Virus record (IMG/VR): IMGVR_UViG_3300028025_005244
Coordinates: 1-60,646 of that record
DNA length: 60,646 nucleotides
Strand: one strand, 5' to 3'
Source of the DNA: a virus
Of the stretch, positions 2,268 to 56,366 are shown one piece after another. The translations under genes were made by a program, and so were the position numbers. Position 1 is the first letter of the stretch; each line of letters begins with the position of its first letter. The notes beneath the pieces were generated by a model. The model worked only from the letters and a program-made list of their open reading frames with translations, had not been told where the DNA came from and searched no databases.

Positions 2268-2305
2268 AGTAACTGTTATATGATAAGAGTGAAACTAGTT
2301 TTCAA
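2268..2305 (-). promoter_or_regulatory. Candidate promoter for nrdJ
   Basis: On the minus strand a TTGAAA hexamer (2300-2305) is followed after 19 bases by TATAAC (2275-2280), about 30 bases before the nrdJ GTG. The -35 overlaps the last codons of the upstream gene. The spacing is one or two bases longer than ideal and host sigma preferences are unknown, so this is a weak prediction. Confidence 0.3.
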
Positions 2306-3764
2306 GCTTTTCTGAGAGTATAGTCGATACCTCTGACTCAGACAAACCTTGGTTTGGGAGCTCCTTGAGCGTATTCGCTCGATCCCCAAACAGGGCAGAC
2401 ATTACTCCACCAGAGCTCTGACGTTCTACCGTCATGCGTACGAATTCTTTATTTTCCTCCAATTCCTTCAGTTGCTTTACAATTTTAAATAAACGATCTA
2501 TCTCTTGGGAAGTGTTAGGATCTGGGTATCCACCGTTCAATTCCTCCGCAAATCGGGCAAAAGCGACTCTAGAACCCTGTATTTCAATGACAGTATTCAA
2601 TAATCCCTTCAATTGCTCCTTTGTTTTTACCTCTACGGGCAGGTTGAAGGCACAGCTATTCTCGGGTTTAAAGGCCGGACAGTTAGTAGCTACGAAGCAA
2701 GTATTACACTGGCGTAGTGAAGAAGATGAGCTAGATAACACTGGAACGTCACGTAAAACGTCTCGTCCAACCTCATCTTTTTCAATTATAGTCTTTGTTG
2801 TAACCCCAAAAACGGGTAATGGGCGCAGTTCTAGGGGGTCTCTTTCTTGCAAATCTTTCCGCACGTCGGGGGGTCTATTATCAGGTTCTGTACCACCTGT
2901 TTCCGCATCTCCCGGGTCATCCATATACACGCTCTTATCAGATAACAGTGGTGTCTTTCGTTCATTAATGAACGCTTCTAGCTCAAGGAAAGACCAGATA
3001 GCTAGACGCGTAACCTCGTTTGGATCATCTGCAATGATTAATGAGTAGTCGAGACCGGCTTTCTCAATGACTGCCTTGTACCGGCTGCGGGCCTGAGCTT
3101 TCATTCTTTTAGGGTAACGAAGAAGGCGAGCGCCATCCCAGACAATTGTTTCCCCACGCATCATCGGGGACAGCCATGCTAGGGTGCTGACTGTGAGGCA
3201 TTGGATCTGCCGTAAATTTTCTGGGCTCATCGAGCCTATAGCGTGGAAGGTGGTTCCAAATTGGGTAGTTAGGGCCCGCGTAATGCCGGCTAAAGACTTA
3301 TCCTCCTCAATACTGTTGCCCACAATCCCCACGTGAGGGTAGGCCTTAGCTAGCCGGTGAAGCTCTGGATGGCCGTCTTTTGCTTCCCAAGTAGGAACAA
3401 AGCGATCAACCCCAAACTCTTCCCAAAAGGTACTTCTCTCAGTTGCTCGGTGTTCTGCCCCTAAAGACTGGGATGTAAACTCAAAAGCTAGCTCGATTCG
3501 GTCCTCGTTTAGGGAGACCCAGTCATTGTACTCAGCATTAAAATCAAAGAGCTCTTCTGTGGTTAGGGCTGACTCATCGTTAATCTTGGCATTTACATAG
3601 ACAAAGACGTCATCTGGGAAGTACTCAGAAAGTAGGTAGTCCTTAGTCTTGGGTAGGCCACGCTTTACAAGGCGCCAGTAGTTTAAGCCAATGTGCTTTA
3701 CGCCATTAGCGACCAGGAGCTTTCTGTGGGAAGGAACCTCTCCACCCAAAAATACGATATCCAT
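2295..3764 (-). CDS. Conserved actinophage-type protein with C-terminal Cys cluster
   Basis: A 489-residue protein of unrecognised function. I chose the ATG at 3764 because GGGAG sits six bases upstream; a GTG four codons earlier is possible. The N-terminal half (about 1-265) looks like a globular alpha/beta domain. A Pro/Asp-rich linker follows, then a cysteine group C353-x2-C356-x5-C362-x8-C371 that could bind zinc or an Fe-S cluster, and a helical tail. It starts two bases after the HAD-like gene and precedes nrdJ. The C-terminal part resembles hypothetical proteins I associate with actinophages, but I know no function for them. Confidence 0.8.
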   Translation of the reverse strand: MDIVFLGGEVPSHRKLLVANGVKHIGLNYWRLVKRGLPKTKDYLLSEYFPDDVFVYVNAKINDESALTTEELFDFNAEYNDWVSLNEDRIELAFEFTSQSLGAEHRATERSTFWEEFGVDRFVPTWEAKDGHPELHRLAKAYPHVGIVGNSIEEDKSLAGITRALTTQFGTTFHAIGSMSPENLRQIQCLTVSTLAWLSPMMRGETIVWDGARLLRYPKRMKAQARSRYKAVIEKAGLDYSLIIADDPNEVTRLAIWSFLELEAFINERKTPLLSDKSVYMDDPGDAETGGTEPDNRPPDVRKDLQERDPLELRPLPVFGVTTKTIIEKDEVGRDVLRDVPVLSSSSSSLRQCNTCFVATNCPAFKPENSCAFNLPVEVKTKEQLKGLLNTVIEIQGSRVAFARFAEELNGGYPDPNTSQEIDRLFKIVKQLKELEENKEFVRMTVERQSSGGVMSALFGDRANTLKELPNQGLSESEVSTILSEKLEN

Positions 3765-3766
3765 CG

Positions 3767-4231
3767 TTACTCCCACCTATGCGCTGATAAATCATCTAAC
3801 ATCAAACTTGCTCTAAATTCTTTTTGTTTTTCAAGCTCAGTCTTTAGCTCTTCCCAAGGCTTTACTTGACGCTTTGTTCTAACAAACTTTGGGGAGGCAA
3901 ATAACAGCGAGGTTATTCCACTTTTAAAAGCCAATGCGCAACGGTCTACATCAGAGTCTACAAATAGCTCTACTGTAGCTAAAGTCTTCATGATATCAAG
4001 TTGTCGTATTCTAAGATCTTGTCCTTCATAGCCAGAGGTATTATCAATAATATCTGCGTACCCAGAAATCATATTGGATCTAAGCCAATGCTCGGCTTCC
4101 ATTTTTGTACCGTCTGTAGCTAGGACTACTCGATAACTGGGAGCTAAAACCCTAAATAGTTTTAATCCTTCGTGAATTGGATTCCCAACTTCGGTTCTAA
4201 GAACCCCGTCTAGTGAAACCAAAGCTGTCAT
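3767..4231 (-). CDS. HAD-superfamily-like protein lacking the nucleophile Asp
   Basis: 154 residues with the layout of a small HAD phosphatase. The motif I position reads SLDGVL (residues 6-11), motif II ATDGT is near residue 40, and a motif IV-like VDSDVD is near residue 112. In catalytic HAD enzymes motif I is DxDG; here the first, nucleophilic Asp is Ser6, while the acid/base Asp8 is kept. Phosphatase activity is therefore doubtful, and a binding or regulatory role is as likely. It overlaps the nucleotidyltransferase-like gene by four bases, so the two may act together. Confidence 0.6.
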   Translation of the reverse strand: MTALVSLDGVLRTEVGNPIHEGLKLFRVLAPSYRVVLATDGTKMEAEHWLRSNMISGYADIIDNTSGYEGQDLRIRQLDIMKTLATVELFVDSDVDRCALAFKSGITSLLFASPKFVRTKRQVKPWEELKTELEKQKEFRASLMLDDLSAHRWE

Positions 4232-6158: not shown

Positions 6159-6719
6159 TTAAGCCATATCCTTCCGGCCAACCCGGGTTCGCTCAGCAAG
6201 AGTAGGCTCAGTTTTTTTAGGTTTACTAGGCGTAGATACCGGTATTTTTCTGTTTTTCATATATTCTTCTTCAATTTTATCTAACTGTTCGGCCGTATCT
6301 CGCTCAAGTTTTGCGGCAGACTTAGTTATTTCTATATCACCGCTTCTAACCAATTTACCTTTGCTGGTCTGTTTAGGGGGAGAAACCTCTGAGTAAGGCT
6401 TTCCAGCTAAAAATTTAGCCCGGGATCGGCCCGGTGAAGTAAACTCATATTTTTTATGCCTTAGTTGATGTTCTGCAGCAAATTCGTTAAAAGGTACGGT
6501 TACGGTAGTAGAGTTGCCTTCGGAATCTTTTACCGTAGTATCTACTTGTCTTTGCATCATAGAAGCTAGCCATGAAGCGTTTGCCTCTTTAGTTAAAGAT
6601 TCGCGTTCTCCCAGAGGAAAGCCCATAATAGGTTTGCCGTCTGGACGGCGATATGGCTCATTTTTATTGCTTTTTTTTCCAGTAGGAAAAGGCTTCTCTT
6701 TACTACTTCTTTTTGCCAC
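6159..6719 (-). CDS. Basic low-complexity protein
   Basis: About 186 residues, strongly Lys/Arg-rich at both ends with a short ordered-looking middle. I place the start at the GTG at 6719, ten bases after GAGGAG; an upstream GTG at 6728 is too close to that site. It overlaps the next gene's end. It is the first of a run of basic, largely disordered proteins (6.1-11 kb) with no recognised family; a nucleic-acid-binding or internal virion role is a guess. Confidence 0.6.
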   Translation of the reverse strand: MAKRSSKEKPFPTGKKSNKNEPYRRPDGKPIMGFPLGERESLTKEANASWLASMMQRQVDTTVKDSEGNSTTVTVPFNEFAAEHQLRHKKYEFTSPGRSRAKFLAGKPYSEVSPPKQTSKGKLVRSGDIEITKSAAKLERDTAEQLDKIEEEYMKNRKIPVSTPSKPKKTEPTLAERTRVGRKDMA

Positions 6720-7620
6720 GGCGCTCACGCTCCTCGTTTGCTAACTTTGCGGTAAACAAAGCACGTTCAGCGTACAATTTTTCTACGTCTTTTAAGTGTT
6801 CCGGCAAAGACTTAGAATCTCCCTGCCCTAATACAGACGCAAGTGAAAAAGCGCCTGCTGGATCTGCTGCTCTAATTTTAGCGTTATATACAGAAATAAT
6901 TTTTTCTGGGCTTTTCCACAACTCGCCAGATTCCTTTGTAGGTCTACGAATTCCTGGATCTGGGTTTCCTTCCCAGGTATCTCTTCTACGAAGACGGGCA
7001 GATTTCTTGCCACTTTTGGTTGTACGTGGGGTTAGCGGAGTCCAAGGACCTTTATCTCGACCTAAATCGTAAGTAGCAGCTTCTTTTTGCAAAGCTAAGT
7101 CTTTTTCTTGTTCTGATAACTTTTTTACTTTTGCTGCGGTTCCTACTTGTTGATTTGGGCGTTGACCAATTTTTTCTTGACCTTGGGTACCGGCTTTTTT
7201 AGGCTCTAATTCAAATGACTCTCTACCAAAGTAAACGTGCTCCATACGACCGTGGGAATCCGGATTAATTACCTTTTTAGAAAGCTCTTTATTTGGGCCC
7301 GCCATACCGCGTCGCCCAGCTTTAAGGTTTTTAAATTGTTCTGCGGCTTCTGCATCTAGTTGTTCACGATAAACGTAGGTGTTTTCTTTAGTTAATGGTT
7401 GAAAGCTTGGTTTAGGGAGTCTACGAGCTACCGAATTTAAATTAGCTGTAGCTTCACAGTCTTTACAGACTGGGTGAAACATAATTCTTCCACCGGAATC
7501 GTCTAAAACGTTAACGCCCATCAATTTGCGAGCAGGGGTGTCTTTTCCTTTACAGGCAGAACCTACGCAATACTCATAAACTTGAGATGCGCCACCATCA
7601 AAAACACTCTTCTTAGCCAT
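6703..7620 (-). CDS. Basic protein with N-terminal Cys motif
   Basis: 305 residues. The N-terminus carries Cys residues near 18 and 23 (C-VGSA-C) and a CKDC near 53, forming a plausible zinc ribbon of about 60 residues. The rest is Lys/Arg/Gln-rich and mostly disordered, ending in a KKK tail. The arrangement suggests a nucleic-acid-binding protein, but no family is recognised. It starts right against the preceding gene (shared base at 7620). Confidence 0.65.
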   Translation of the reverse strand: MAKKSVFDGGASQVYEYCVGSACKGKDTPARKLMGVNVLDDSGGRIMFHPVCKDCEATANLNSVARRLPKPSFQPLTKENTYVYREQLDAEAAEQFKNLKAGRRGMAGPNKELSKKVINPDSHGRMEHVYFGRESFELEPKKAGTQGQEKIGQRPNQQVGTAAKVKKLSEQEKDLALQKEAATYDLGRDKGPWTPLTPRTTKSGKKSARLRRRDTWEGNPDPGIRRPTKESGELWKSPEKIISVYNAKIRAADPAGAFSLASVLGQGDSKSLPEHLKDVEKLYAERALFTAKLANEERERRGKKK

Positions 7621-8021
7621 TAGTACCCGCTAGGTTTACGAGACTTCTTAGACTCTCGATATGCGCTCAAAGAGGTAACGTTTGAACCTAAATGTTCACT
7701 GGATCCATGAGAGAAATGCTCAGAACGACCATTACCTGGGTGTCTAGCTACAGAACGATTTAATTCCGCCTCTGTATGTGGGTCAAGAGGAATGCGATTA
7801 CTTACATGCTTATGTGGTTCCTGTATATCGCAATCGCCAGTACCGAGGTTGCAGCTTTGGTGATATTTTCTAATTGGGGTAGCGTTAGTAGGCTCGTTTT
7901 CTGGATATAGCCCAAGCATCTCTCCAGCACCCTTAGCAATTTTCTTAATATCTTTGCTGAGTGGTGAAGTGGCTAGCTTTTTTACTAAACTTTTTTTAGG
8001 TTTAGACGTGTCTTTATCCAT
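7620..8021 (-). CDS. Hypothetical basic protein with Cys/His motif
   Basis: 133 residues. A cluster of His and Cys between about 52 and 72 (YHQSC, DC, PHKH) may bind a metal. The C-terminal third is rich in Ser, His and Arg. No family is recognised. It belongs to the same tightly packed string of small genes and abuts its downstream neighbour. Confidence 0.6.
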   Translation of the reverse strand: MDKDTSKPKKSLVKKLATSPLSKDIKKIAKGAGEMLGLYPENEPTNATPIRKYHQSCNLGTGDCDIQEPHKHVSNRIPLDPHTEAELNRSVARHPGNGRSEHFSHGSSEHLGSNVTSLSAYRESKKSRKPSGY

Positions 8022-8045
8022 AATAACTAACTCCCCTAAAACTGA

Positions 8046-8327
8046 TTAGTAATTTGCTCCCATTTGCTTTTCAGATACGTTAAATACGTCTGAAGCTGGG
8101 CGGGAAGAGCTGTTAGCTGTCATCTTGCCAGGATTTACCTTTGCAGGTGTTTCTTGGTCGATGAAGTCATAGTTCATGTAAGGGTTTAGACCGCGGCGGT
8201 TAGCGCGTACGATCTCGTCGCCCATGCCTGGATCGATAGTGGTGTTGGGGCGAACTTTACGGTACTTACCGTCAGTTGCTCCTTCGTTTAAGCTTTCGTT
8301 TAATGAGCCTGATTCGTTAGTTGCCAT
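8046..8327 (-). CDS. Hypothetical small protein
   Basis: 93 residues, polar and probably disordered, with a GLNPYMNYDFID segment in the middle. No motif is recognised. It shares a base with the next gene's stop (8327), so coupled translation is likely. Confidence 0.6.
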   Translation of the reverse strand: MATNESGSLNESLNEGATDGKYRKVRPNTTIDPGMGDEIVRANRRGLNPYMNYDFIDQETPAKVNPGKMTANSSSRPASDVFNVSEKQMGANY

Positions 8328-8707
8328 TATATGTACCTTTCCTTTGCTTTTTTAGCGTCTTCTGCTTTTAATTTTTGATGGTGAGTATCTTTAGCAACTC
8401 TTAGGGCATGAGTTACATCTTCTGCTTCATAACCTTCGGGCACTTCTTTTTTGTATTCCCGTATATCTTTTAAAATATGTGAAGTTTTTGCGTGACCTTT
8501 ACCTACATTAAATCCACGATTATTTTGATCACCAAAACCGTGGGTATCGCCTTTTATAGGCAAAATTCTTCCGGCCATAGCGCCATGTCGATCACTCTCG
8601 TCATATCGCTCCCAACCAGAAGCGTTAGAGTAAGCTTTCATTGTTGCCTCATGAGTACGGACAGATTTAGCTACACGCTTAGCGTCACGCTCTCTTCGCA
8701 TCTTCAC
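8327..8707 (-). CDS. Tandem paralog A (RRERDA-R-VAKS family)
   Basis: 126 residues. The N-terminus (RRERDAKRVAKSVRTHEATM, then KAY-ASGW) matches the N-terminus of the gene directly upstream almost position for position, so the two are products of a local duplication. Both also share a G-GHA/VAT-like stretch later. The C-terminal 50 residues, charged and helical, are unique to this copy. The conserved head is very basic and helical. Function is unknown. Confidence 0.65.
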   Translation of the reverse strand: MKMRRERDAKRVAKSVRTHEATMKAYSNASGWERYDESDRHGAMAGRILPIKGDTHGFGDQNNRGFNVGKGHAKTSHILKDIREYKKEVPEGYEAEDVTHALRVAKDTHHQKLKAEDAKKAKERYI

Positions 8708-8718
8708 GGTGTGTCCTC

Positions 8719-9066
8719 TTACTTATTCTTTGGATATCTGGTAGCAACGTGGCCTCTGCCAAGAGTATGGCCAAGACGAGATGGTTCCATATCGTTAGTT
8801 TGAGACGCTTTAAACTCACTCTTTGCGCGTGGGTTATGCTCGTTTGGGGTAAAAATAGTTCCAGTACTTCTATTGTTATCCTTGGCTGAAGGAAAAATAG
8901 AGTTTACATCTGTAACATCGCCTTCTTTAGGGTCATTGTAGGCGTTCCATGCCTCCCCGTTAATGCGGGCCCAGCCGGAGGCCTTGCCATAAGCTTCCAT
9001 AGTGGCATCGTGAGTGCGAATAGACTTAGCAACGCGTCTAGCGTCACGTTCTCTGCGGATGCCCAT
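8719..9066 (-). CDS. Tandem paralog B (RRERDA-R-VAKS family)
   Basis: 115 residues, the partner of the gene downstream. It begins MGIRRERDARRVAKSIRTHD and has AYGKASGW at about 25-32. After the conserved head it has an inserted Asn/Asp/Ser-rich segment and ends in LGRGHVATRYPKNK. Only 11 bases separate the pair. The conserved head probably binds something common to both proteins. Confidence 0.65.
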   Translation of the reverse strand: MGIRRERDARRVAKSIRTHDATMEAYGKASGWARINGEAWNAYNDPKEGDVTDVNSIFPSAKDNNRSTGTIFTPNEHNPRAKSEFKASQTNDMEPSRLGHTLGRGHVATRYPKNK

Positions 9067-9554
9067 TACTTAGCCTTCTTGTTCTTCATACGGATAGGTG
9101 TCTTTGAACGACTAGCCTTTTTGGTAATCTTGTTTTCTTTCTTTTTATCTTCAGGTTTCTTAATCTTATTCTCGACTACTTTGTAGATCTTCTTAATTTT
9201 AGGTTCGTCAAATCCCGGGCTTTTTGGCTTAGGCTTTGGCATGTCTTTACGTTCATGCTTCATAGCATCCTGCATTTGGCTTTTCTTATAATCTGATCGG
9301 CCAAGTTGAGGAGATTTAGGCGTAGAAGGCTTAGGCTTATCTTTTGGTGGCTTATTCATCCACGCTTCGTGCTTACCAAAAGTTGATGGGTCGCCTTTCA
9401 TAGGCTTACCATAGTTACTATGCTTTTCTTTGTTAGAACGTTCACTCTTGTATTCATACTCATTCTTTTTAGGCAAGCCTTTTTTATCTTTAGGCGGAAT
9501 ACCGTATTTCTTCTTGTCTGGTCCTTCGTCTGGAGACGCAACAGCTGTCTTCAT
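9066..9554 (-). CDS. Lysine/proline-rich disordered protein
   Basis: 162 residues, close to a third Lys with many Pro and few hydrophobic residues, including repeated KPKP, KKP and DKKK patterns. It would be highly positively charged and unfolded, as in DNA- or RNA-condensing or virion-internal proteins, though nothing proves this. AGG lies just upstream of its ATG at 9554. Confidence 0.6.
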   Translation of the reverse strand: MKTAVASPDEGPDKKKYGIPPKDKKGLPKKNEYEYKSERSNKEKHSNYGKPMKGDPSTFGKHEAWMNKPPKDKPKPSTPKSPQLGRSDYKKSQMQDAMKHERKDMPKPKPKSPGFDEPKIKKIYKVVENKIKKPEDKKKENKITKKASRSKTPIRMKNKKAK

Positions 9555-10970: not shown

Positions 10971-11004
10971 AATGAAAATGGGGACAGAAACAGGTCTGTC
11001 CCCA
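10971..11004 (-). terminator. Rho-independent terminator after the holin-like pair
   Basis: A perfect 10-bp stem (10979-10988 with 10995-11004) with a six-base loop. Read on the minus strand it is followed by TTTTCATT. It sits directly after the stop of the 83-residue membrane protein and separates it from the small-gene run to the left. Confidence 0.75.
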
Positions 11005-11020
11005 TAATCTTTTTAATTTT

Positions 11021-11272
11021 TTACTTCTTTTTGCCCTTTTTCTGGGTGTCAGAAAGAAACTTCATAACTGTTGGCAAAGCCGCGTTAACAATACCGAACG
11101 CTGGATCTTTTGGATTCAAAGCACGGATAGCTACTGGCAGGATTGCTGCTAGGCCGGCTGCAAGCAGGGCCTTTGGATCGGTGTTACCGGTAGTCCATAG
11201 CGCAACAGCTGCGGCTAGGAATGAACGGCCATATGATGACAACATTGCTAGAATCTTTGGATCTAACTTCAT
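11021..11272 (-). CDS. Holin-like small membrane protein
   Basis: 83 residues with two hydrophobic stretches (about 12-28 and 36-52, Ala/Leu-rich) and a Lys-rich C-terminus (KKGKKK). The layout resembles r1t-type small phage holins, which form inner-membrane lesions to release endolysin, but no sequence signature proves it. It sits at the left end of the divergent lysis region, next to a second small membrane protein. Confidence 0.55.
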   Translation of the reverse strand: MKLDPKILAMLSSYGRSFLAAAVALWTTGNTDPKALLAAGLAAILPVAIRALNPKDPAFGIVNAALPTVMKFLSDTQKKGKKK

Positions 11273-11282
11273 TTATTACTCC

Positions 11283-11486
11283 TTATTTTTTCTTGTTATC
11301 AATGAGAGCTACAAAAAGCTCGTCAATACGCTTCTCAAGTCTATCGACAGAGTCACGCAAACTTGTTCCAGAATTTGGCTTAAGTTCAGTTAAATAATGT
11401 TTAACCATGTAACGAACCATTACGCCAATTGAACCAATTAACGAAACTATAGTGAGGCAAAAAGCTGCCCAGTCCTGTGCGGACAT
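11283..11486 (-). CDS. Small single-TM membrane protein
   Basis: 67 residues starting at the ATG at 11486, chosen because AGGAGA lies a few bases upstream. A longer in-frame start would lie in the promoter region. One transmembrane segment (about 6-24) is followed by a charged coiled-coil-like helix (LRDSVDRLEKRIDELF). This shape is common in phage holin partners, antiholins and sensors. It forms a two-gene unit with the holin-like protein. Confidence 0.6.
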   Translation of the reverse strand: MSAQDWAAFCLTIVSLIGSIGVMVRYMVKHYLTELKPNSGTSLRDSVDRLEKRIDELFVALIDNKKK

Positions 11487-11582
11487 ACGGTATCTCCTAA
11501 AGAACAAGTTGTAGGGGCAACTATGATACACGTAATACGTATTGTCATGGTAAAGTACAAATATAGTTAAGAAGGAGAAAAA
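11487..11582. promoter_or_regulatory. Divergent promoter region
   Basis: This is the only divergent junction in the window: the minus-strand holin-like pair starts at 11486 and the plus-strand cassette at about 11583. On the minus strand ATGACA (11543-11548), a 17-base spacer and CATAGT make a reasonable promoter. A short palindrome ATACGTAT (about 11536-11543) lies between the two transcription units and could be an operator. On the plus strand TATAGT at 11562-11567 is AT-rich, but is too close to the ribosome binding site (AAGGAG at 11572) to be a confident -10. Confidence 0.4.
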
Positions 11583-13967
11583 ATAAACCTACTGCGCCCA
11601 TTCGCAGCACTAATCCTTACACTATTCCTCTTTATATTGGGACAAAATTCAGCAAACGCAGAAGAACCTACTGTAGATACAGCTGTAGTTAGCCCTGCCT
11701 CCACAGATTCTTCTCCAAGTCCTGAATCTTCTCCCGCTCCCGCAACAGATCCTGTGACAACGAGCGAGACTTCGACTTCCACGGTTCAGACCACTGAATC
11801 CCCCCAACAAACCAACCCGCCGCAAACGCAACCAGTATTAGAAGCTCCAACTGTAACCTCCGTACAAGAAAAAATTGAGACTGCAACTATAACATTAAGT
11901 AACGCAATTTCTACCGCCAGCCCAGCACAGCAAACTGCCGCAGAAGCACCGGTAGCTGAGGCAACCACAGCAATCCAGGCCGCAGAATCAGCTACAGCTG
12001 TAGCGGTAGTAGCGGTACAGGCTGTTGATTCTCAGACAGCGGTGGTGGCTACAGCCACTACAGCCGTTGAGTCAGCAACAGCAGTCGTTGCTACAGTTAC
12101 AACATCGGTTGAATCCCAAACTGCGGTAGTGGCTACTGCAACAACTAATCTTACAAATGCTCAAACCACGCTAACTGCTCTTCAAAATACCCCGTCTGAT
12201 TCTAAAACTTACACAACTGCTGGGTATGTTGCTCCTGTTAATCCAGAGACTCAAACAGTCACAACTACAACTCTTCCCCCAATGTGGGATGCTGCTACAA
12301 AAATTCAAACGCCTTTTGACATCAAAATGGGAAATACCGTTTATGAAGGTCAGGGAACAAATAGTCAAATTTACGTAACTTCTAAAGCCACTATTACCTT
12401 TGGCACTGGTGACTTTAACTGGTGGGATTTCCCGGCAGGACCTCACATCTCCGTCTTTGCTTCTGATTTTATGAGTGCTGGTCCTGGAGCAAGCATTACT
12501 GTTACAACTACTGAGACTACATTAGCGGTTGATTGGGATTTACATAAGTTTGGTGACAATAACGGCCCTCTTACTAATGTTAACTGGACCATGACAGTAA
12601 ATCCAACAACAGGTGAGTGGACAGGCGTTGGAACTGTTGCAGGAAACACCACTAATTTGTACAACGGCCCACGTATTGGCGTTCGTGAAACTGCAGGTGC
12701 TCCAGTACAGCAAATGACTAACGTAACTAACGAAGCTTTAACTGCTCAAATTACTGAGCAAACAGCTGTTGTAGCTGATAAGACAGAGGTTAAGGCAGAA
12801 GCCGTTGCAACACTCACAACCCTTACAGCAGAGAAAACAACAGCAGAGACAGCGCTTGCAACAGCTCAGACCACACTAACAACAGAAACTGGGACATTGA
12901 CAACCCTCCAATCAACAGCTAATACAGCGGTTATTGCAGCAAATCAATTAGCAGATACTGCAACTGCTAGCGTAGCAGTAGCGGTTGCTGCTTTGCAAGT
13001 TCCAACACCTATAGTTCAACCAGTGGTCCCTGATCCCAGTCCGGCCCCAGAACCTCAACCCGTTCCTCAACCTGAACCAGTGACTCCGGAACCTGTGACT
13101 CCAAATCCCGTAGTGCCAGATCCAGAGCCTTCTCCAGAGGAACCAACCACTCCGGATACTCTCCCTGAGACTGGAGATACTGACGTTTCTGATGATGCAC
13201 CTGATTCAACAGATGACGCAACTGATGACGCACCTACTGAGCCCTCCACAGAAGAGCCAGAGCAACCCATAGAAGAGCCACAAGAACCGGTAGAGCCCGA
13301 AGAGCCAGTCGTAGAGCCCGAGGTGCCTGTTGAGGAAGTCGAACCACCCGTGGAAGAAGAACCACAACCAGAGTTACCAGAAACAGAGCCAGAAAATCCG
13401 TTAGAAGAATCATTCCCAGAGCCTACCACACCTGAAGAGGAAGTAGATGCCGCGGTAGAAGATGCCCTAGAAGACGGCGTTGTTACTGAGGCTGAAAAAG
13501 AAATAATTGTAGATGCTCTTTTAGAGTCTGTAAAGCCTGGGGAAGCGCTTACTGCTGAAGCTATTGCTGAAGCCGGCATTGAGTATAAGGACCTTCCACC
13601 GGAGACCCCTGTTGAGGTTAGAACAGATGAAAATGGAAATGAAGTTATAATTACGGCAGACGTTGCTGCGGCCCTTGTGCTATTAGAGAACCCCGCGGAA
13701 TTAATTGGTGCAATATTCAGTGATCCAGGAGAAGCCCTCCAAGCGCTAGGAAGTATAGGCGCTGATATGTCTACAGAAGAACGTGAAGAAGCACAAGAAA
13801 TGGTAGTTGCTGCTGTTATTGCAGCTGGTGCTGCCATGAATGCGGTGGGAGCTGCTGCAGGAGCTGCCGGTACAAGTACTGGTGGTTCAAGTGGCGGAGG
13901 GGGCGGAAGTTCTGGTGGCGGAGGTCCATCAGGAGACAGTAAAGGCGTTAGGAGACGTAAGCCATGA
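11583..13967 (+). CDS. Large secreted Ala/Thr-rich, Pro/Glu-rich protein with probable ATA start
   Basis: Read from ATA at 11583, five bases after AAGGAG, the protein has 794 residues and a textbook signal peptide: MNLLR, a hydrophobic core and an ANA-EE cleavage site. No ATG, GTG or well-placed TTG gives this; the TTG at 11637 would cut the signal in half. The mature protein has an Ala/Thr/Val-rich coiled-coil region, a compact Trp-rich beta domain (about 225-365), more coiled coil, a long Pro/Glu/Asp linker, a helical domain with an EF-hand-like DxxxDG-rich part, and a Gly/Ser tail ending in RRRKP. It opens the plus-strand operon. The likely location is the host surface or periplasmic space. 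Function is unknown. Confidence 0.8.
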   Translation: MNLLRPFAALILTLFLFILGQNSANAEEPTVDTAVVSPASTDSSPSPESSPAPATDPVTTSETSTSTVQTTESPQQTNPPQTQPVLEAPTVTSVQEKIETATITLSNAISTASPAQQTAAEAPVAEATTAIQAAESATAVAVVAVQAVDSQTAVVATATTAVESATAVVATVTTSVESQTAVVATATTNLTNAQTTLTALQNTPSDSKTYTTAGYVAPVNPETQTVTTTTLPPMWDAATKIQTPFDIKMGNTVYEGQGTNSQIYVTSKATITFGTGDFNWWDFPAGPHISVFASDFMSAGPGASITVTTTETTLAVDWDLHKFGDNNGPLTNVNWTMTVNPTTGEWTGVGTVAGNTTNLYNGPRIGVRETAGAPVQQMTNVTNEALTAQITEQTAVVADKTEVKAEAVATLTTLTAEKTTAETALATAQTTLTTETGTLTTLQSTANTAVIAANQLADTATASVAVAVAALQVPTPIVQPVVPDPSPAPEPQPVPQPEPVTPEPVTPNPVVPDPEPSPEEPTTPDTLPETGDTDVSDDAPDSTDDATDDAPTEPSTEEPEQPIEEPQEPVEPEEPVVEPEVPVEEVEPPVEEEPQPELPETEPENPLEESFPEPTTPEEEVDAAVEDALEDGVVTEAEKEIIVDALLESVKPGEALTAEAIAEAGIEYKDLPPETPVEVRTDENGNEVIITADVAAALVLLENPAELIGAIFSDPGEALQALGSIGADMSTEEREEAQEMVVAAVIAAGAAMNAVGAAAGAAGTSTGGSSGGGGGSSGGGGPSGDSKGVRRRKP

Positions 13968-14134
13968 GAATAATTAAAGACATGATTGACCAACTATGGA
14001 CACTTCTAGGTATGTTTATTGCTTGGGTTGTTCTAGATGGATCTGCAAAAACCGTAGTTGGATACGCAATTATCGGTACTTTATTTGCCTGGGCTGTTAC
14101 GTACCCTTTAAGAAACCCAAAGGATGAGGAATGA
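13964..14134 (+). CDS. Small two-TM membrane protein (56 aa)
   Basis: Overlaps the end of the large secreted gene (ATGA) and the start of the lipoprotein gene (ATGA), so coupling on both sides supports it. It has two hydrophobic stretches (about 11-24 and 31-47) around a short polar turn and a charged C-terminus ending in PKDEE. It lies within the plus-strand envelope/lysis cassette, and its shape suits a small holin or membrane adaptor. Confidence 0.7.
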   Translation: MRIIKDMIDQLWTLLGMFIAWVVLDGSAKTVVGYAIIGTLFAWAVTYPLRNPKDEE

Positions 14135-14361
14135 AAACATTTAAAATACTGCTGTTAGCCTCTGTATTAACGCTGTCTTTGACTAGCTGTGGCTATAGCG
14201 GGTTTTACAGATATCCGTGTCAGGACCCAAAAAACTGGGAAACTGCGGAATGTAAGCCACCTATATGCACTGCGGCTCAAATTTGTCCAGTAGACTTAGT
14301 CAAGACAGCCCCACAAGACGGAACCACAGCCACACTAGAAACGGGAACACCAAATGAGTAA
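14131..14361 (+). CDS. Secreted lipoprotein
   Basis: 76 residues. It has a type II signal peptide with basic MKTFK, a hydrophobic core and the lipobox LTSC, so Cys20 should be lipidated and the protein anchored on the outer face of the membrane. The mature part is about 57 residues with four further Cys and many Pro/Thr. Phage lipoproteins of this size often block superinfection or help lysis; the sequence alone does not tell which. It is coupled to its neighbours by short overlaps. Confidence 0.75.
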   Translation: MKTFKILLLASVLTLSLTSCGYSGFYRYPCQDPKNWETAECKPPICTAAQICPVDLVKTAPQDGTTATLETGTPNE

Positions 14362-14764
14362 AGAACGCCTTACACCAGCCGAATTAGACTCTAGATTAAA
14401 GTTTATGCTAGGCACTATTCTTGGCCTTATTCTATTTTTTACAGCTCTAGGTATTTTGTACGGACTTTTATTCGTAACCCAGCCTATTGGAGCTCAGTCA
14501 GAGAACGACAAGATGTTTTTTAACGTTCTTGGAAGCATCGCTACTTTTATTACAGGAACCCTTGCGGGTATCTTGATCGGTAACTCTGGTGCTAAAGATA
14601 TTATGGCAGCACAGCTTCAAAACAAAGAAATGGACGCTAAGAACACACAGGCGGACAAGAAGCTTGAGGCAGAAATTGACGCTACAGCTGCTCGTTTAGC
14701 AGCAAAGCCAGATGGACAAATGCCAGAAGCTCAACCTGTAGATACGGACTGGGATAAAGACTAA
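14354..14764 (+). CDS. Two-TM membrane protein with charged tail (holin candidate)
   Basis: 136 residues. Two transmembrane helices (about 18-42 and 56-78) are joined by a short polar loop and followed by a long charged, helical C-terminal tail that faces the cytoplasm if both ends are inside. It overlaps both neighbouring genes and lies two genes before the endolysin. It is a good holin candidate, but the family is not recognised. Confidence 0.6.
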   Translation: MSKERLTPAELDSRLKFMLGTILGLILFFTALGILYGLLFVTQPIGAQSENDKMFFNVLGSIATFITGTLAGILIGNSGAKDIMAAQLQNKEMDAKNTQADKKLEAEIDATAARLAAKPDGQMPEAQPVDTDWDKD

Positions 14765-15045
14765 TGCCGTTAAATCACTATACATTTAGTGTGAATAGTG
14801 CATCCCCAACTCGTATTACTCCTGAAGGTAGGGAAGCAGGATCAAGCGTAACTATTCACATTCAAAATTTTGGAGCTCACGACGTATTTATTGGCGGAGA
14901 GGGGCTAACTTCTAGCTCTTATGGAAGACATTTAAATACCGGAGAAAGCATTAGTTTTGAAAACCTTACAACAGCTGATGAAATCTATGCATTAGCTGAA
15001 GCCGGTCAAAGCACAACTGTAGCCGTAATAATTATAAAGCGTTAA
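14764..15045 (+). CDS. Small beta-rich protein, possible virion decoration
   Basis: 93 residues, almost all predicted beta strands: VTIHIQNFGAHDVFIGG, then SSYGRHLNTGESISF. This pattern is familiar from small phage decoration or fibre-tip proteins with a jelly-roll-like fold. Its place between a membrane protein and the endolysin is unusual for a structural protein, so the assignment is tentative. Confidence 0.55.
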   Translation: MPLNHYTFSVNSASPTRITPEGREAGSSVTIHIQNFGAHDVFIGGEGLTSSSYGRHLNTGESISFENLTTADEIYALAEAGQSTTVAVIIIKR

Positions 15046-15059
15046 GGAAAGGACTAATA

Positions 15060-15623
15060 ATGGCAGATCAAGGAACCGCAGCCCGACTTATTGAGGTTGC
15101 AACTGCAGAAATAGGGACTATTGAAGGACCTAAAGATAATGAAACTAAGTATGGCGCTTTTATGAAAGCTAATTTTCAACCGTGGTGTGGAAGCTTTGTT
15201 AACTGGTGCGCAAATGAGGCTGGGGTAAAGATTCCTAACACGGTCTACACTCCGGGTGGTGCGCAGGCGTTTAAGAAAGCCGGTGCGTGGATTGATGGAG
15301 ATATTGCGGATCCAGAACCGGGAGATATTGCCTATTTTGATTTCCCATCAGACGGCGTAGATCGTATTTCTCACGTAGGAATTGTAGTAAAAGATAATGA
15401 AGACGGCACCGTGTGGTGCATTGAGGGAAACACTTCTTCAAAAAAGAAGGGTAGCCAAAGAAATGGTGGGGAAACCTGCAAGCAACTTCGGGCTTTTAAA
15501 AAGAACAAAGCCGGAGTAATGATTTCTATCGTAGGTTTTGGTCGCCCTAAGTTTAAAGGTGCTGGGGCTGCACCTAAACCTGCTGCGGAAAAAGCGGAAA
15601 AGTGCCCAACTTGCGGCAAGTAA
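15060..15623 (+). CDS. CHAP-domain endolysin
   Basis: 187 residues. The CHAP cysteine peptidase/amidase signature is complete: Cys43 in PWCGSFVNWC, His105 in ISHVGIV, and Glu122/Asn124 in IEGNT. It cuts peptidoglycan peptide or amide bonds. There is no signal peptide, so release through a holin is expected. The C-terminus is a short Ala/Pro/Lys tail ending in CPTCGK, a CxxC pair that may bind zinc. No separate wall-binding domain is present. It is the last gene before the plus-strand terminator. Confidence 0.85.
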   Translation: MADQGTAARLIEVATAEIGTIEGPKDNETKYGAFMKANFQPWCGSFVNWCANEAGVKIPNTVYTPGGAQAFKKAGAWIDGDIADPEPGDIAYFDFPSDGVDRISHVGIVVKDNEDGTVWCIEGNTSSKKKGSQRNGGETCKQLRAFKKNKAGVMISIVGFGRPKFKGAGAAPKPAAEKAEKCPTCGK

Positions 15624-15636
15624 TTATAAAATAAAT

Positions 15637-15665
15637 AACCCCCGGCTAATAACCGGGGGTTTTTT
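15637..15665 (+). terminator. Strong terminator between convergent operons
   Basis: A 9-bp stem, AACCCCCGG (15637-15645) with CCGGGGGTT, has a seven-base loop CTAATAA and runs straight into TTTTTT (15660-15665). It ends the plus-strand lysis cassette 14 bases after the endolysin stop. Read on the minus strand it may also stop the replication operon that ends at 15667. Confidence 0.9.
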
Positions 15666-15666
15666 A

Positions 15667-16848
15667 TTAGCGGTCGTTTTTACCGCCAAGTACAACTAAC
15701 TCTCTTCGAGGATCTAAACCCTCTCCGACTACTAAAGAAATAATTCCTGGTGCGCTTTCAAGCCCTGACTTATCCCTAAACCAAGCCGATCCATTATCCA
15801 TTGCAGGATTTTGTATAAACAGTCTTGGGCCAACATTCTGTGACCGGTAATGGTGATAGTGACCAACATTAAGTATGTCTGCCTGTGCTACTGAGCAACG
15901 CCCCATAGCTTGTCCAGCCCACCACTTAACCATGTCCCTGGCCTGATGTCCATGGGCCATACCGTACATAACTCCGCTTAGATTAACGGTTAGTGTGCTG
16001 TCATCTGCAGCGGGGTATCGGAACTCTACGCGGTCTCGTAGGAAATCATTTTCTTTACAAATATCTTCAACTTGAGAAACAACCTCAATTTGCCACGAAT
16101 CTTCTGGGCGACCAACTAAGAAACGTTGAACTTCATCGTGGTTACCAGGCACTACTGGGACAATAATCTTATTTGCTAGTGGTGCAAAAGCCTTAACTTG
16201 TGCGAGGAGCATTCGTCTACCTACACGAACTTGCTCTGATACGCCAATGTCGTGACGTCCCATAACCTTGCCCTTTTGGCTTGTCATACCCTCAATGCAA
16301 TCGCCTAGTTGTGGCAGAGCAATCTGACCGATCTTGTATTTCTTTGACAAATACTTTTGATGTTCAACGGCTTCATCTAAAGACATAAGAACTCTATTAA
16401 TAATTGCCGGCGTATCGTCTTTACCGTATTGAGTATCTCCAATACTGTACACCGCAGTTAGATCTCCGCTAGCGTCAACTACTTTTCCTGGCTTCCATTT
16501 ATTTATGTTATCTAACAACTCTACAAGATCGTAATCTTTTTCTGTAGATCCGTTTACTGGAACAACATTGATTCTAAATGACTCTAGCCATTCACCGTCA
16601 TACTTTTGCCAACGAGATCTGCGGTGTGATACAACAGCCCACTCTGCAGGGTCTAAATTAGCTTCTCTTAAAATCTCTTCTGCGCCAGGAGTGTTTCCGT
16701 CTGGTCGTGGAGTAGAAACAACAAACCCACCATCAGTGCCTATTTCAGAACGTGGGCGCCAAGTTTCAGGGATATGTTTATTTAATTTATCTGAGCCTTC
16801 TTGTCCTGCTTTAATAATTGCGTCGCTATAATCGTCGCTTAAGGACAT
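15667..16848 (-). CDS. Calcineurin-like metallophosphoesterase
   Basis: 393 residues. The N-terminal 120 residues are a separate alpha/beta region. The phosphoesterase core then shows GDTQYG, GDCIEG, the diagnostic GNHDE, AHGHQ and GHYHH, which together supply the two-metal site. Such phage proteins act as DNA exo/endonucleases (Mre11/SbcD-like) or phosphatases. Context at the end of the replication/recombination operon favours a nucleic-acid substrate. The GD-x-H first motif is modified to GDTQ. Confidence 0.8.
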   Translation of the reverse strand: MSLSDDYSDAIIKAGQEGSDKLNKHIPETWRPRSEIGTDGGFVVSTPRPDGNTPGAEEILREANLDPAEWAVVSHRRSRWQKYDGEWLESFRINVVPVNGSTEKDYDLVELLDNINKWKPGKVVDASGDLTAVYSIGDTQYGKDDTPAIINRVLMSLDEAVEHQKYLSKKYKIGQIALPQLGDCIEGMTSQKGKVMGRHDIGVSEQVRVGRRMLLAQVKAFAPLANKIIVPVVPGNHDEVQRFLVGRPEDSWQIEVVSQVEDICKENDFLRDRVEFRYPAADDSTLTVNLSGVMYGMAHGHQARDMVKWWAGQAMGRCSVAQADILNVGHYHHYRSQNVGPRLFIQNPAMDNGSAWFRDKSGLESAPGIISLVVGEGLDPRRELVVLGGKNDR

Positions 16849-18878: not shown

Positions 18879-19154
18879 ATGTATTCTCCCTCTAGAATAA
18901 CGGCTTTTCCGGATATCCCACGTTTTTTTCTAATATTATCTCGTTCGTTAAATGTAGTGCCAGCCCACAAACCGTGCACTAAATTCTCTACCGCATAATC
19001 ATAGCACTCTATTTTTGCTGGGCAAGTAGCGCACATTCTTCTTACAGTGTCTAAATTAGAGTAGTTAGCGTTATCTTCTTCTGTAAAAAAGACTTCTGGA
19101 TCTATCCCTAAACAAGACGGGGTATTAACAAACTTAATAAAAACTCAGCGTCAT
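18875..19154 (-). CDS. WhiB-family Fe-S regulator, frame interrupted at a T5 run
   Basis: The open frame encodes a complete WhiB core: SC-LGIDPEVFF, then CATCPAKIEC, then the GLWAGTT turn and a basic C-terminal helix. The four Cys should hold a 4Fe-4S cluster. WhiB proteins bind the housekeeping sigma factor. The ATG at 19154 overlaps the FmdB stop (ATGA), exactly where a start is expected, but reads MTLSFY-stop. A single T fewer in the TTTTT run (19139-19145 region) would join it to the core as MTLSFIKFVNTPSC. Either the sequence has one extra base, ribosomes shift +1 here, or translation starts at ATT. It overlaps the next gene by four bases. Confidence 0.75.
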
Positions 19155-20175: not shown

Positions 20176-20490
20176 TTATTTTTCCTTCTCCTCTAGCCAT
20201 TTTTCCAAGGTATATCCCATTTTAGTGTACTTACGTTTAAGCGCATTTCGTTCTCTGTGACTCATCCCGCCAAAGATACCATGAAGCTCATCGTTCTTAA
20301 TAGCCTCTTTTAGGCACTGCTTTCTTACAGGGCAGGGAGGCCTGCCATCTCTACCATAACAAATTGCCTTAGCTGAGTCAGCTATGGGTTTGTATAACTT
20401 CTTATCCCTCGGGGGGAAAAAGATCTCAGTGTCTTCTCCTCGACACTTTGCTTCATATCTCCAAGCCCAGGACGGGTTGTTTTCTGACAA
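20176..20490 (-). CDS. WhiB-family Fe-S regulator
   Basis: 104 residues with the WhiB arrangement: Cys16 (AKCRGEDTEIFFP), Cys44, CPVRKQC (Cys53 and Cys59), then GIFGGMSHRERNAL. The usual CxxC is stretched, C44 to C53 being eight residues apart, and the G[VI]WGG turn reads GIFGG. Second of three WhiB proteins here. It may compete with host WhiB proteins for sigma factor. It abuts the nuclease genes on both sides. Confidence 0.88.
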   Translation of the reverse strand: MSENNPSWAWRYEAKCRGEDTEIFFPPRDKKLYKPIADSAKAICYGRDGRPPCPVRKQCLKEAIKNDELHGIFGGMSHRERNALKRKYTKMGYTLEKWLEEKEK

Positions 20491-30715: not shown

Positions 30716-30978
30716 CTACTCTTAACCTTATTTTTAGCACTACGCATCCTTATTCTTTGGCGAGGAGTTGTTCCGCCCCAAATTCCCTCTAACCAGGGAG
30801 TTTTTATTGCGTATTGCAAGCATTCATTAATGAGCGGACAAGCCGAACAAATGGTCTTAGCCTCTCTAAGAACCTCAGGATCTGTGTAGTCTTCGGGAAA
30901 GAAAAGATTAGAGTTTAAGTCATTACATAGCTGAGTGCCATTAAATGGATAATCTGAGTACTCAATATTAAGCTCCAT
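30712..30978 (-). CDS. WhiB-family Fe-S regulator
   Basis: 88 residues from the ATG at 30978; the longer upstream reading has a hydrophobic run that belongs to the helicase frame. Features are QLC-NDLNSNLFFP, CSACPLINEC, GIWGGTT and a basic tail RQRIRMRSAKNKVKSR, so all four Cys and the WhiB turn are canonical. Third and most canonical WhiB of the window. It overlaps the end of the DnaB-like gene by 11 bases. Confidence 0.92.
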   Translation of the reverse strand: MELNIEYSDYPFNGTQLCNDLNSNLFFPEDYTDPEVLREAKTICSACPLINECLQYAIKTPWLEGIWGGTTPRQRIRMRSAKNKVKSR

Positions 30979-52879: not shown

Positions 52880-54709
52880 CTATGCCCAGCCTGTAGAGAG
52901 TGGTCCGGATGAACCGTCTCCATTTGACGCTGTTACGCTAACCCATCTAGCCCAGCTATATGTAGAGCTGTTTCTTGTTACTTGAACAGATCCCCCAGCA
53001 GCAATTGTTCCGCCGCTACCAGTAGTTGACGCTAAAACAGAACCGCCATTTGAGTTAGAGAATTGAAGTCCCCAACTGTATGACGTAGCCGCGCCACCAC
53101 TGTTTGAAATCGTTAATGTCCAGCTATTAGGGCTTCCGCCATTGTAAGTGTTCGTAACACTAATATTTGGCGGACTTGACACCGCCACGGTTGTAAAGGT
53201 AACGTTAGGAGACTGTACAAATGCTGATGAAAGACCAGTATTAACGTCAAAAGTTTGAACTCGTATGTAGAATGTTCCGGCTTGTCTAAGTTGAACAGAC
53301 AATACGGCGCCGCCGCCACCAGTTACATACGACCCACCACTAGTGTAGATATCCCATACGTAAGACAAAGTACCGCTGCCACCCGATCCAGCGCCCCAAC
53401 TAAATGTACCTCCGGTAGGGCTAAGATTGTCTACACCACTAGGATTTGTTGGTGGGTTAGGTGCCGACGGTCCCGGAGCGTTTATAGAACCAATATCCAC
53501 CCCGGTTTGGATCCAACCAGAAGTACCGCCAGCATTAGATGCGCGAGCAAAAGCCCTAAAGAATCTTTTTCCAGAGTCGTAGTCCGCTTGTGTTACGAGG
53601 TAGCTTAGTGATGCAGAAGTAGATCCAGAACCGGTGGCTCGTGGATTATTACCGGCATCTTCGCCCTCAACAACTCCAGCAGTACCGCGAACAAGTTTAA
53701 TTTCAACACTTGTAGGGTTGTTGTTCCACCCAGAAGTTGAAGCGGTTATTGTAGTACCTATATTAATTGTGCCAGAAGCTGGGTTTTGGCTTATGCTGCC
53801 GGAAGTAGGTGCTGGAACGTTATCAAGAGTTACTGGGTCTCCCGATCCTGTAAGGGACGGTAACCCACCTTGTTGTACGCTTCCAAGGGTATTTACGTTT
53901 TCCGTGTTTACCGGGTAAGACATAAATGAGTACGATGCTCCAGGAGTCAATCCAGTAACTACTGCTTGACCGCCATTAGAATTTATAGTTCCCCAAAAAA
54001 CTTGGTTACCCGATCCAGCAGGCCCGTAATAGGCTAAAGCGCTTGTGGTATTTGCACCAAAAAAAGTTGCAAAAGTAAATGTATTTGATCCTTTAGATAC
54101 AAGAGAAACCGAAGGTCGGCTTGGAGTAGGTACTGTATAATTATAAAGAGTATACCCAACAGTTTGAGCAGTAGTGTAGCTACTTCCTGCAGGAATAGTT
54201 TGACTTGCAACTGTATTGTGGTTGTTAGCGGTTGCCCCAGATGCGCTTCTTAGAACTGAACCTACTGTGTTTCCTGCGTTAGTAATTAAAGCATTTGCAG
54301 TTGCTTCGGTTTGACCCACAACATTTGGGACGGTAATAAATGTAAATACGTAATAACTAAGGTTTACTGTTTGAGCTGATAGATATACGCCTGGAGTTAC
54401 GCTCTGTGAAGCAATGTTTCCGTTGTTTGCTGGAGTAGCGCCATTAGCATTATTAAGTATAGTATTTGTTCCAGGAGTATTTCCGGAGTTAGTTATATTT
54501 GTTCTACCGGTAGCCAAAACTTGGCCCACAACATTTGGGACAACAAAAGCGCTATATGTAAAGATTGATCGCCAAGTACCCGCAACTTTTACGTAGGCGT
54601 TAGTCACACCTAACCAGGTTCCGTTTACTTTTACGTAGGCTGTTTGTACGGAGTCAGTATCCGGAGATACCGTTTTCCACGCACCAGCTACTTTTACGTA
54701 CTTGGCCAT
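52880..54709 (-). CDS. PASTA and Ig/FN3-like surface structural protein
   Basis: 609 residues. Three copies of YVKV-G-W open the protein (4-11, 25-32, 39-46), each followed by a short linker, an anchor-like repeat. Two PASTA-type domains (VPNVVGQ at about 58 and 128, each with TAQTV- or SAQTV-like ends) follow, then several Ig/fibronectin-like beta domains. PASTA binds muropeptides and beta-lactams in host kinases and PBPs. Here it likely lets the virion stick to peptidoglycan. It probably decorates the neck or capsid. Confidence 0.8.
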   Translation of the reverse strand: MAKYVKVAGAWKTVSPDTDSVQTAYVKVNGTWLGVTNAYVKVAGTWRSIFTYSAFVVPNVVGQVLATGRTNITNSGNTPGTNTILNNANGATPANNGNIASQSVTPGVYLSAQTVNLSYYVFTFITVPNVVGQTEATANALITNAGNTVGSVLRSASGATANNHNTVASQTIPAGSSYTTAQTVGYTLYNYTVPTPSRPSVSLVSKGSNTFTFATFFGANTTSALAYYGPAGSGNQVFWGTINSNGGQAVVTGLTPGASYSFMSYPVNTENVNTLGSVQQGGLPSLTGSGDPVTLDNVPAPTSGSISQNPASGTINIGTTITASTSGWNNNPTSVEIKLVRGTAGVVEGEDAGNNPRATGSGSTSASLSYLVTQADYDSGKRFFRAFARASNAGGTSGWIQTGVDIGSINAPGPSAPNPPTNPSGVDNLSPTGGTFSWGAGSGGSGTLSYVWDIYTSGGSYVTGGGGAVLSVQLRQAGTFYIRVQTFDVNTGLSSAFVQSPNVTFTTVAVSSPPNISVTNTYNGGSPNSWTLTISNSGGAATSYSWGLQFSNSNGGSVLASTTGSGGTIAAGGSVQVTRNSSTYSWARWVSVTASNGDGSSGPLSTGWA

Positions 54710-56312: not shown

Positions 56313-56326
56313 ACTAATAGTGTAGC

Positions 56327-56366
56327 AAAAGAAAAGCCCCACCAGTCCCGGGGGACGATGGGGAGC
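56327..56366 (-). terminator. Terminator between fibre genes and the glycosyltransferase
   Basis: In the minus direction a stem CCCCA...TGGGG with an inner GTCCC/GGGAC stem and CC loop (56337-56363) is followed by CTTTTCTTTT. It would end the fibre transcript just before the glycosyltransferase gene and can reduce, not fully block, transcription into it. Confidence 0.7.

Follow-up and report, generated by a model that had tools for sequence, protein, structure and literature searches.

The stretch of DNA analyzed here (the window) is the 60,646-base virus record IMGVR_UViG_3300028025_005244 of IMG/VR, which carries myophage-type genes (tail sheath, baseplate wedge, DNA polymerase, and ribonucleotide reductase) and belongs to a phage whose near-full-length relatives measure about 95-108 kb. 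Positions 11583-15623 make up the lone plus-strand operon among the main genes of the window, every other main gene being oriented in the opposite direction. The operon contains, in order, the gene of a large, predicted exported protein (BIG), TM56, a lipoprotein, a 136-amino-acid (aa) protein with two membrane spans, a 93-aa protein, and a CHAP endolysin, followed by a terminator (Table 1). BIG and its small neighbor TM56 are the main subject of this analysis. A sequence-only reading of the same DNA had described an envelope cassette running against its surroundings and closed by a strong terminator. The orientation and the terminator, with T-rich tails on both strands, agree with this description, a single transcription unit is supported, and the signal peptide, Trp-rich beta domain, Pro/Glu stalk, Gly/Ser tail, lipoprotein, membrane proteins, and endolysin all lie where that reading had placed them.

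The BIG reading frame is open from 11571 to 13967 and is preceded by a stop codon at 11568-11570. A hydrophobic signal sequence is found at the N-terminus, and signal peptides can be read from the sequences of relatives as well. Segments rich in Ala, Thr, and Val probably form coiled coils, the stalk (residues ~470-615) consists of 29% Pro and 22% Glu, and a Gly/Ser tail is evident from composition. The Trp-rich domain, for which structure prediction had been suggested, was modeled by AlphaFold2 as an all-beta head at residues ~207-368 (mean predicted local distance difference test score, pLDDT, 88.5). Residues 379-471 match TIGR04320 (SEC10/PgrA) with 16.7 bits, below the NCBIfam cut-off of 70. 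Sortase anchoring was considered and rejected, as an LPXTG motif occurs in one of 111 family members (LPETG in the window), and there in mid-protein. Nor is the basic end of BIG, RRRKP, solely a protein signal, since the same Arg codons carry the Shine-Dalgarno site of TM56.

An initial search matched BIG to 67 viral loci. Searches of IMG/VR with the C-terminal domain each gave at least 550-554 confirmed loci, which puts the family at no fewer than 550 IMG/VR loci, and exactly one copy was present in each of 14 records. No relatives were found among named phages by tblastn. Two scans of prokaryote genome contigs for the C-terminal domain or the Trp-rich head gave no confirmed relative, although the pattern search would miss distant ones; a host origin of BIG was rejected on these grounds, with the same reservation.

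TM56 is the immediate next gene after BIG in 108 of 111 distinct loci with complete proteins; counted from the stop codon of BIG, its start lies at -1, -4, or +2. Of the remaining three loci, L006 has a small inserted gene, TM56 is degraded in L036, and the contig of L323 ends there. All 111 loci have a Shine-Dalgarno-like match ahead of TM56, with the exact sequence AGGAG in 48, and the pairing holds even where the endolysin is encoded elsewhere. Judged from these gene neighborhoods, TM56 is as conserved as BIG and appears to belong with it. The sequence-only reading had listed tiny membrane proteins in the cassette; these are present, with the amendment that TM56 pairs obligatorily with BIG. 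In a distant family, that of Actinomycetia phage DSL-LC01 (OQ999401.1), the 944-aa hypothetical protein WJZ48438.1 combines a signal peptide, an FN3-like domain, a stalk, and a Gly/Ser region with a C-terminal TM56-like domain, and the same phage encodes relatives of the lipoprotein and the holin candidate of the cassette. A TM56-like domain is also fused to a BIG-like protein in L338 and L339, while in L337 it is encoded by a separate gene directly after. Profile alignment (hhalign) of TM56 with the domain of the DSL family gave a probability of 94.5% (P 7.7e-8, 54 columns), against ≤1.5% for the other cassette proteins; full-length BIG showed no blastp similarity to WJZ48438.1. This fusion and fission is the best evidence that TM56 acts with BIG, and TM56 is thus best read as its putative membrane partner.

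The head of BIG is exchangeable. Among 111 distinct proteins, 71 carry a head of the Trp-rich superfamily, 24 a PA14 domain, two a SUEL lectin domain, one FN3 alone, and 13 other types. PA14 (in L043, L075, L110, and L098) and SUEL (in L078) scored above the Pfam cut-offs at the head position, while no PA14 match was found in BIG of the window with Pfam. In BFVD, the window head is matched by two uncultured Caudovirales proteins. The exchange is apparent even in a comparison with phage G005, otherwise ~98% identical, where most proteins are 95-100% identical to those of the window and the heads are unrelated (Trp-rich in the window, PA14 in G005). Other differences between the two phages concern the 93-aa gene, a block at about 6-9.6 kb, and the fiber candidate at 52880-54709 in its C-terminal half. 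As PA14 and SUEL belong to known carbohydrate-binding types, a glycan-binding role is the natural reading for the heads, and by analogy the Trp-rich head of the window may bind glycans too. A further small, Cys-containing head type, without domain assignment and with GKGDIA.LFC.GG as its conserved motif, was observed in L195, L188, and L295-L311.

The start at 11583 had been given in the sequence-only reading; it is an ATA codon located 5 nt after AAGGAG, and its position is borne out by the relatives. There is no in-frame ATG, GTG, or TTG from the upstream stop to the signal sequence. Alignment of 46 distinct 5' ends on the signal-peptide motif gave ATA in 24, TTG in ten, ATG in six, ATT and ATC in two each, and GTA and CTG in one each; 27 of the 29 non-canonical starts likewise have no in-frame ATG, GTG, or TTG between the preceding stop and the start codon. 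Most ATA starts are preceded by AAGGAG, AGGAG, or GGAG at 5-7 nt, whereas ATG starts have GAGGT merely 2 nt away or, mostly, no recognizable Shine-Dalgarno site (one has GAGG at 5 nt). Weak initiation therefore looks like the conserved trait of BIG. The endolysin gene begins with ATG in 55 of 59 cases, and that of the holin candidate in 27 of 27. A conserved near-cognate codon behind a strong Shine-Dalgarno site marks the BIG start, as far as sequence can tell, as an attenuated non-AUG start. Conserved AUA and AUU starts behind strong Shine-Dalgarno sites in Staphylococcus aureus give about 10% of the output of AUG (PMC13009471), and by analogy the output of BIG protein would be low. No example of an AUA start in a phage was found in the open-access literature searched. 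Other starts were rejected: the first ordinary candidate (TTG at 11637, or any ATG or GTG) lies past the hydrophobic core of the signal sequence and is unsupported in relatives, and the CTG of the hairpin described below is too distant from the Shine-Dalgarno site and is replaced by CTA, TTG, or TCA in some relatives. In a lineage without the hairpin (L133 at position 2003, L253, L129, and L123), BIG apparently starts at ATT after GGAG.

The inverted repeat CTGCG-N6-CGCAG begins 6 nt past the last base of the start codon (9 nt from its first base). The stem is paired at all five positions in 44 of 52 distinct 5' ends, compared to an expected 2.05 (no more than 7 in any of 2000 trials) for synonymous re-encoding with the codon usage of the window, in which CTG makes up 5.6% of the Leu codons. 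Changes on both sides are seen at two of these pairs, and pairing holds in 97.4% of the alignment cells, whereas slid versions reach 57% at most. A DNA operator would be as compatible with the dyad symmetry and the double changes as an RNA hairpin, and the half-sites lie 11 bp apart, as inverted operator half-sites about one helical turn apart would. The distance to the start is nevertheless fixed at 9 nt, free of insertions and deletions across 48 sequences, which favors the hairpin; GU-type changes in the stem and the scarcity of the exact motif (one copy in the window and no more than one in any of eight relatives) also speak against an operator, which we consider possible though not probable.

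The remaining genes of the cassette are linked to BIG more loosely. The endolysin has a CHAP domain (PF05257, 46.1 bits against a Pfam cut-off of 26), matches PHROG endolysins with E down to 5e-25, and is a predicted peptidoglycan hydrolase. The sequence-only reading had staked itself on conservation of the large protein with the lysis genes, and the endolysin indeed lies close to BIG in 71 of the 83 distinct loci compared, although the side and the distance vary. A second layout places the lipoprotein, holin candidate, and endolysin upstream of BIG, separated from it by other genes, and there too BIG is followed by TM56. The holin candidate (HOL) was found by plain blastp in 44 of 67 loci; its counts from the 83 loci use iterative profiles and may take in unrelated small membrane proteins. 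The extent of the unit required correction: two minus-strand genes for small membrane proteins (11021-11272 and 11283-11531) are found in other phages downstream of TM56 and on the same strand, and by gene order the lysis-linked module extends to them, beyond the coordinates given earlier, while the 93-aa gene appears to be a passenger. No Rfam element reached the gathering score within 11000-16000. Further signal-peptide proteins are encoded near BIG in L060 (8074-9801 and 13515-14183) and L066 (13667-14596 and 15371-16393), and phages of this family may therefore export several proteins.

Table 1. Features of the BIG-TM56 locus, with positions in the window.
Feature	Position	Strand	Basis
Small membrane protein, 83 aa, one predicted transmembrane segment, holin-like candidate, divergent from cassette	11021..11272	-	Open reading frame, hydropathy; near BIG in 36/83 distinct loci; in the second layout, on the strand of TM56 and downstream of it
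Small membrane protein, 82 aa, one predicted transmembrane segment, holin-like candidate, divergent from cassette	11283..11531	-	Hydropathy; near BIG in 39/83 distinct loci
Shine-Dalgarno site of BIG, AAGGAG	11572..11577	+	5 nt before ATA
Start codon of BIG, ATA	11583..11585	+	No upstream in-frame ATG/GTG/TTG; position aligned in relatives
Conserved hairpin/dyad, CTGCG-N6-CGCAG	11592..11607	+	Pairing against synonymous codons; compensatory changes
BIG, 794 aa, predicted exported protein	11583..13967	+	Open reading frame; family search; one copy per phage
Signal peptide of BIG, residues 1-26 (...NSANA/EE)	11583..11660	+	Sequence; hydrophobic segment at residues 1-19
Trp-rich beta domain (exchangeable head), residues ~207-368	12201..12686	+	AlphaFold2; exchanged in relatives
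Pro/Glu stalk, residues 470-615	12990..13427	+	Composition
Conserved C-terminal domain, residues ~630-738	13470..13796	+	Alignment
Hydrophobic Ala-rich helix, residues 740-758, possible membrane span before Gly/Ser tail	13800..13856	+	Hydropathy 1.95; long helix in low-confidence model
AGGAG site of TM56, within Arg codons of BIG	13950..13954	+	Shine-Dalgarno-like match across family
TM56, 56-aa membrane protein	13964..14134	+	Overlapping neighbor of BIG; fused homologue in DSL-LC01
Lipoprotein, 76 aa, lipobox LTSC	14131..14361	+	Sequence; found in 36/83 loci
136-aa protein, two membrane spans, holin candidate	14354..14764	+	phrog_25359 (function not assigned in PHROG); hydropathy
93-aa protein, sporadic passenger	14764..15045	+	In 3/83 loci; 32% identity in phage G005
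CHAP endolysin	15060..15623	+	PF05257, PHROG endolysins
Bidirectional terminator	15637..15661		G+C-rich stem, T-rich tails on both strands

WhiB genes scored above the cut-off in all 14 phage records examined, including the window, and in one of 14 control genomes, that of Corynebacterium glutamicum. This supports an actinobacterial host and the assignment of the window phage and its whole relatives as probable actinophages. Three WhiB-family genes are located in the window (18935-19120, 20239-20463, and 30748-30933). Elsewhere, 2295-3776 encodes a queuine tRNA-ribosyltransferase family protein (phrog_887) adjoining other conserved genes, which makes 7-deazaguanine DNA modification possible, and 55260-56342, beside structural genes, encodes a family 2 glycosyltransferase with TPR repeats. 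The region 6159-9554 is a hypervariable island, whose small genes diverge or are absent when phages about 98% identical elsewhere are compared. The fiber candidate at 52880-54709 is a 609-aa protein with YVKVxGTW repeats and a PASTA domain, and is likely a virion fiber or a receptor-binding candidate; in near-identical phages its C-terminal half is about 55% identical, against about 94% for the N-terminal half.

We consider it probable, with moderate confidence, that BIG and TM56 form a membrane-anchored, sparsely translated surface lectin or adhesin made together with the lysis proteins. The Sec pathway would export BIG, and the coiled-coil and Pro/Glu segments would hold its exchangeable head off the membrane, while the conserved C-terminal domain, the hydrophobic helix, and TM56 would keep it in the membrane. 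A plausible topology has the head and stalk outside, the Ala-rich helix 740-758 spanning the membrane, and the Gly/Ser tail inside, followed by the TM56 hairpin. The AUA start, or in some relatives an AUG without a good Shine-Dalgarno site, would keep synthesis low, perhaps helped by the hairpin just inside the gene. Displayed on the surface, BIG may bind glycans of the infected cell or its debris and so change what adheres, with the possible outcomes that competing phages are excluded, progeny are kept off debris, or cells are held together. Several observations weigh against this reading. The window head has no relative in Pfam or the PDB (none at E≤0.001 in the latter). The AlphaFold2 model of the C-terminal part has low confidence (pLDDT 61), and the homology between TM56 and the DSL-family domain is that of a short hydrophobic stretch. 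Heads are exchanged between phages sharing a 97%-identical, 1121-aa fiber-like protein, which disfavors a head adapted to the receptor that the phage itself uses; a match between head and fiber was likewise rejected, as the fiber candidate at 52880-54709 compared in three phages showed no co-variation with it. Finally, a weak start with the low output expected from it argues somewhat against a stoichiometric receptor mask, and fits better with a sensor or a few-copy adhesin.

A sensor is the basis of the first alternative, in which BIG and TM56 would be a low-copy lysis-timing device, the head detecting glycans of neighbors, debris, or superinfecting phages and TM56 acting as or on a holin, like the T4 antiholin RI. 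The obligatory small membrane partner, the nearby endolysin and holin candidates, and a presumably low translation suited to a regulator are consistent with this, but TM56 tracks BIG rather than the endolysin, similarity to known antiholins was not found, and a timer is not expected to swap heads often; we regard it as unlikely. BIG could also act in lysis itself, perhaps as a wall-spanning scaffold aiding the endolysin or envelope rupture, a monoderm counterpart of spanins. It has the long stalk and membrane partner and shares an operon with the endolysin and holin candidates; its absolute linkage is nevertheless to TM56, the endolysin being elsewhere in more than a dozen loci, and lectin-type heads are swapped, which leaves this role doubtful. 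The wider proposal that the pair is a membrane receptor whose interchangeable lectin heads read outside glycans and feed lysis timing, with the AUA start and hairpin as a translational switch for timing and amount, is speculative, and we give it little weight. That BIG is a virion fiber or decoration protein seems equally remote: modular, low-complexity, lectin-bearing proteins with domain exchange are typical of fibers, and a homologue of the fiber candidate lies about 2 kb downstream of BIG in L024, but relatives carry a signal peptide, BIG has no match to PHROG tail families at E≤1, its membrane partner is obligatory and fused in DSL-LC01, and in the layouts read it lies beside lysis and non-structural genes, outside the structural module. 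In this respect the sequence-only reading, which had taken the protein for something other than an ordinary virion fiber, finds support.

A membrane-anchored surface lectin or adhesin would agree in kind with the envelope-remodeling unit that was first proposed: an exported surface-type protein, linkage to lysis genes, and swappable heads including known lectin-type domains speak for it. The first proposal is supported in part, and superinfection exclusion, aggregation, and virion retention, the examples of a purpose that it named, are possibilities. The inseparability of BIG and TM56, the exchange of heads, and the conserved weak AUA start with its hairpin are new. Freshwater actinobacteria are among the most abundant lake bacteria, and the pair is present in at least hundreds of sequenced contigs of aquatic actinobacterial viruses. 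If our reading is true, the phage lysis genes go together with an exported lectin-type protein of modular build, for which a membrane partner and a fused form are identified, and experiments could directly address whether it serves superinfection exclusion, debris shielding, or aggregation. Its conserved AUA start, together with the compensating Shine-Dalgarno site and the covarying hairpin, would represent a natural example of a virus keeping the translation of one gene low.

Among known systems, SEC10/PgrA (TIGR04320), the weak, sub-cut-off match, is an exported, coiled-coil-rich surface protein, as BIG is predicted to be; it is plasmid-encoded, wall-anchored, and enterococcal. Lectin proteins with PA14 or SUEL share these domains with BIG relatives, whereas the window's head matches no known domain and the domains of the family sit on a putatively self-anchored phage protein. 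Surface proteins such as Llp of phage T5 stop adsorption to infected cells and to fragments of lysed cells (PMC9586334). Like these superinfection-exclusion proteins, BIG is phage-made, and signal peptides read from the sequence suggest that it may be exported to the host surface; the cassette also encodes a small lipoprotein; unlike Llp, with which it shares no homology, BIG is large and modular with exchangeable heads and a membrane partner, and the host of T5 is diderm. The non-AUG attenuation of infC, ccpN, and cvfC1 (PMC13009471) resembles that proposed for BIG in the conserved AUA or AUU codon and the strong Shine-Dalgarno site before it, while BIG differs in being a phage gene, in the hairpin just downstream, and in AUG versions with a weak or no Shine-Dalgarno site. 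A further counterpart is WJZ48438.1 of DSL-LC01, which has the signal peptide, stalk, Gly/Ser region, and TM56-like end, and relatives of the cassette genes in the same phage, but in which the equivalents of BIG and TM56 are a single polypeptide of 944 aa.

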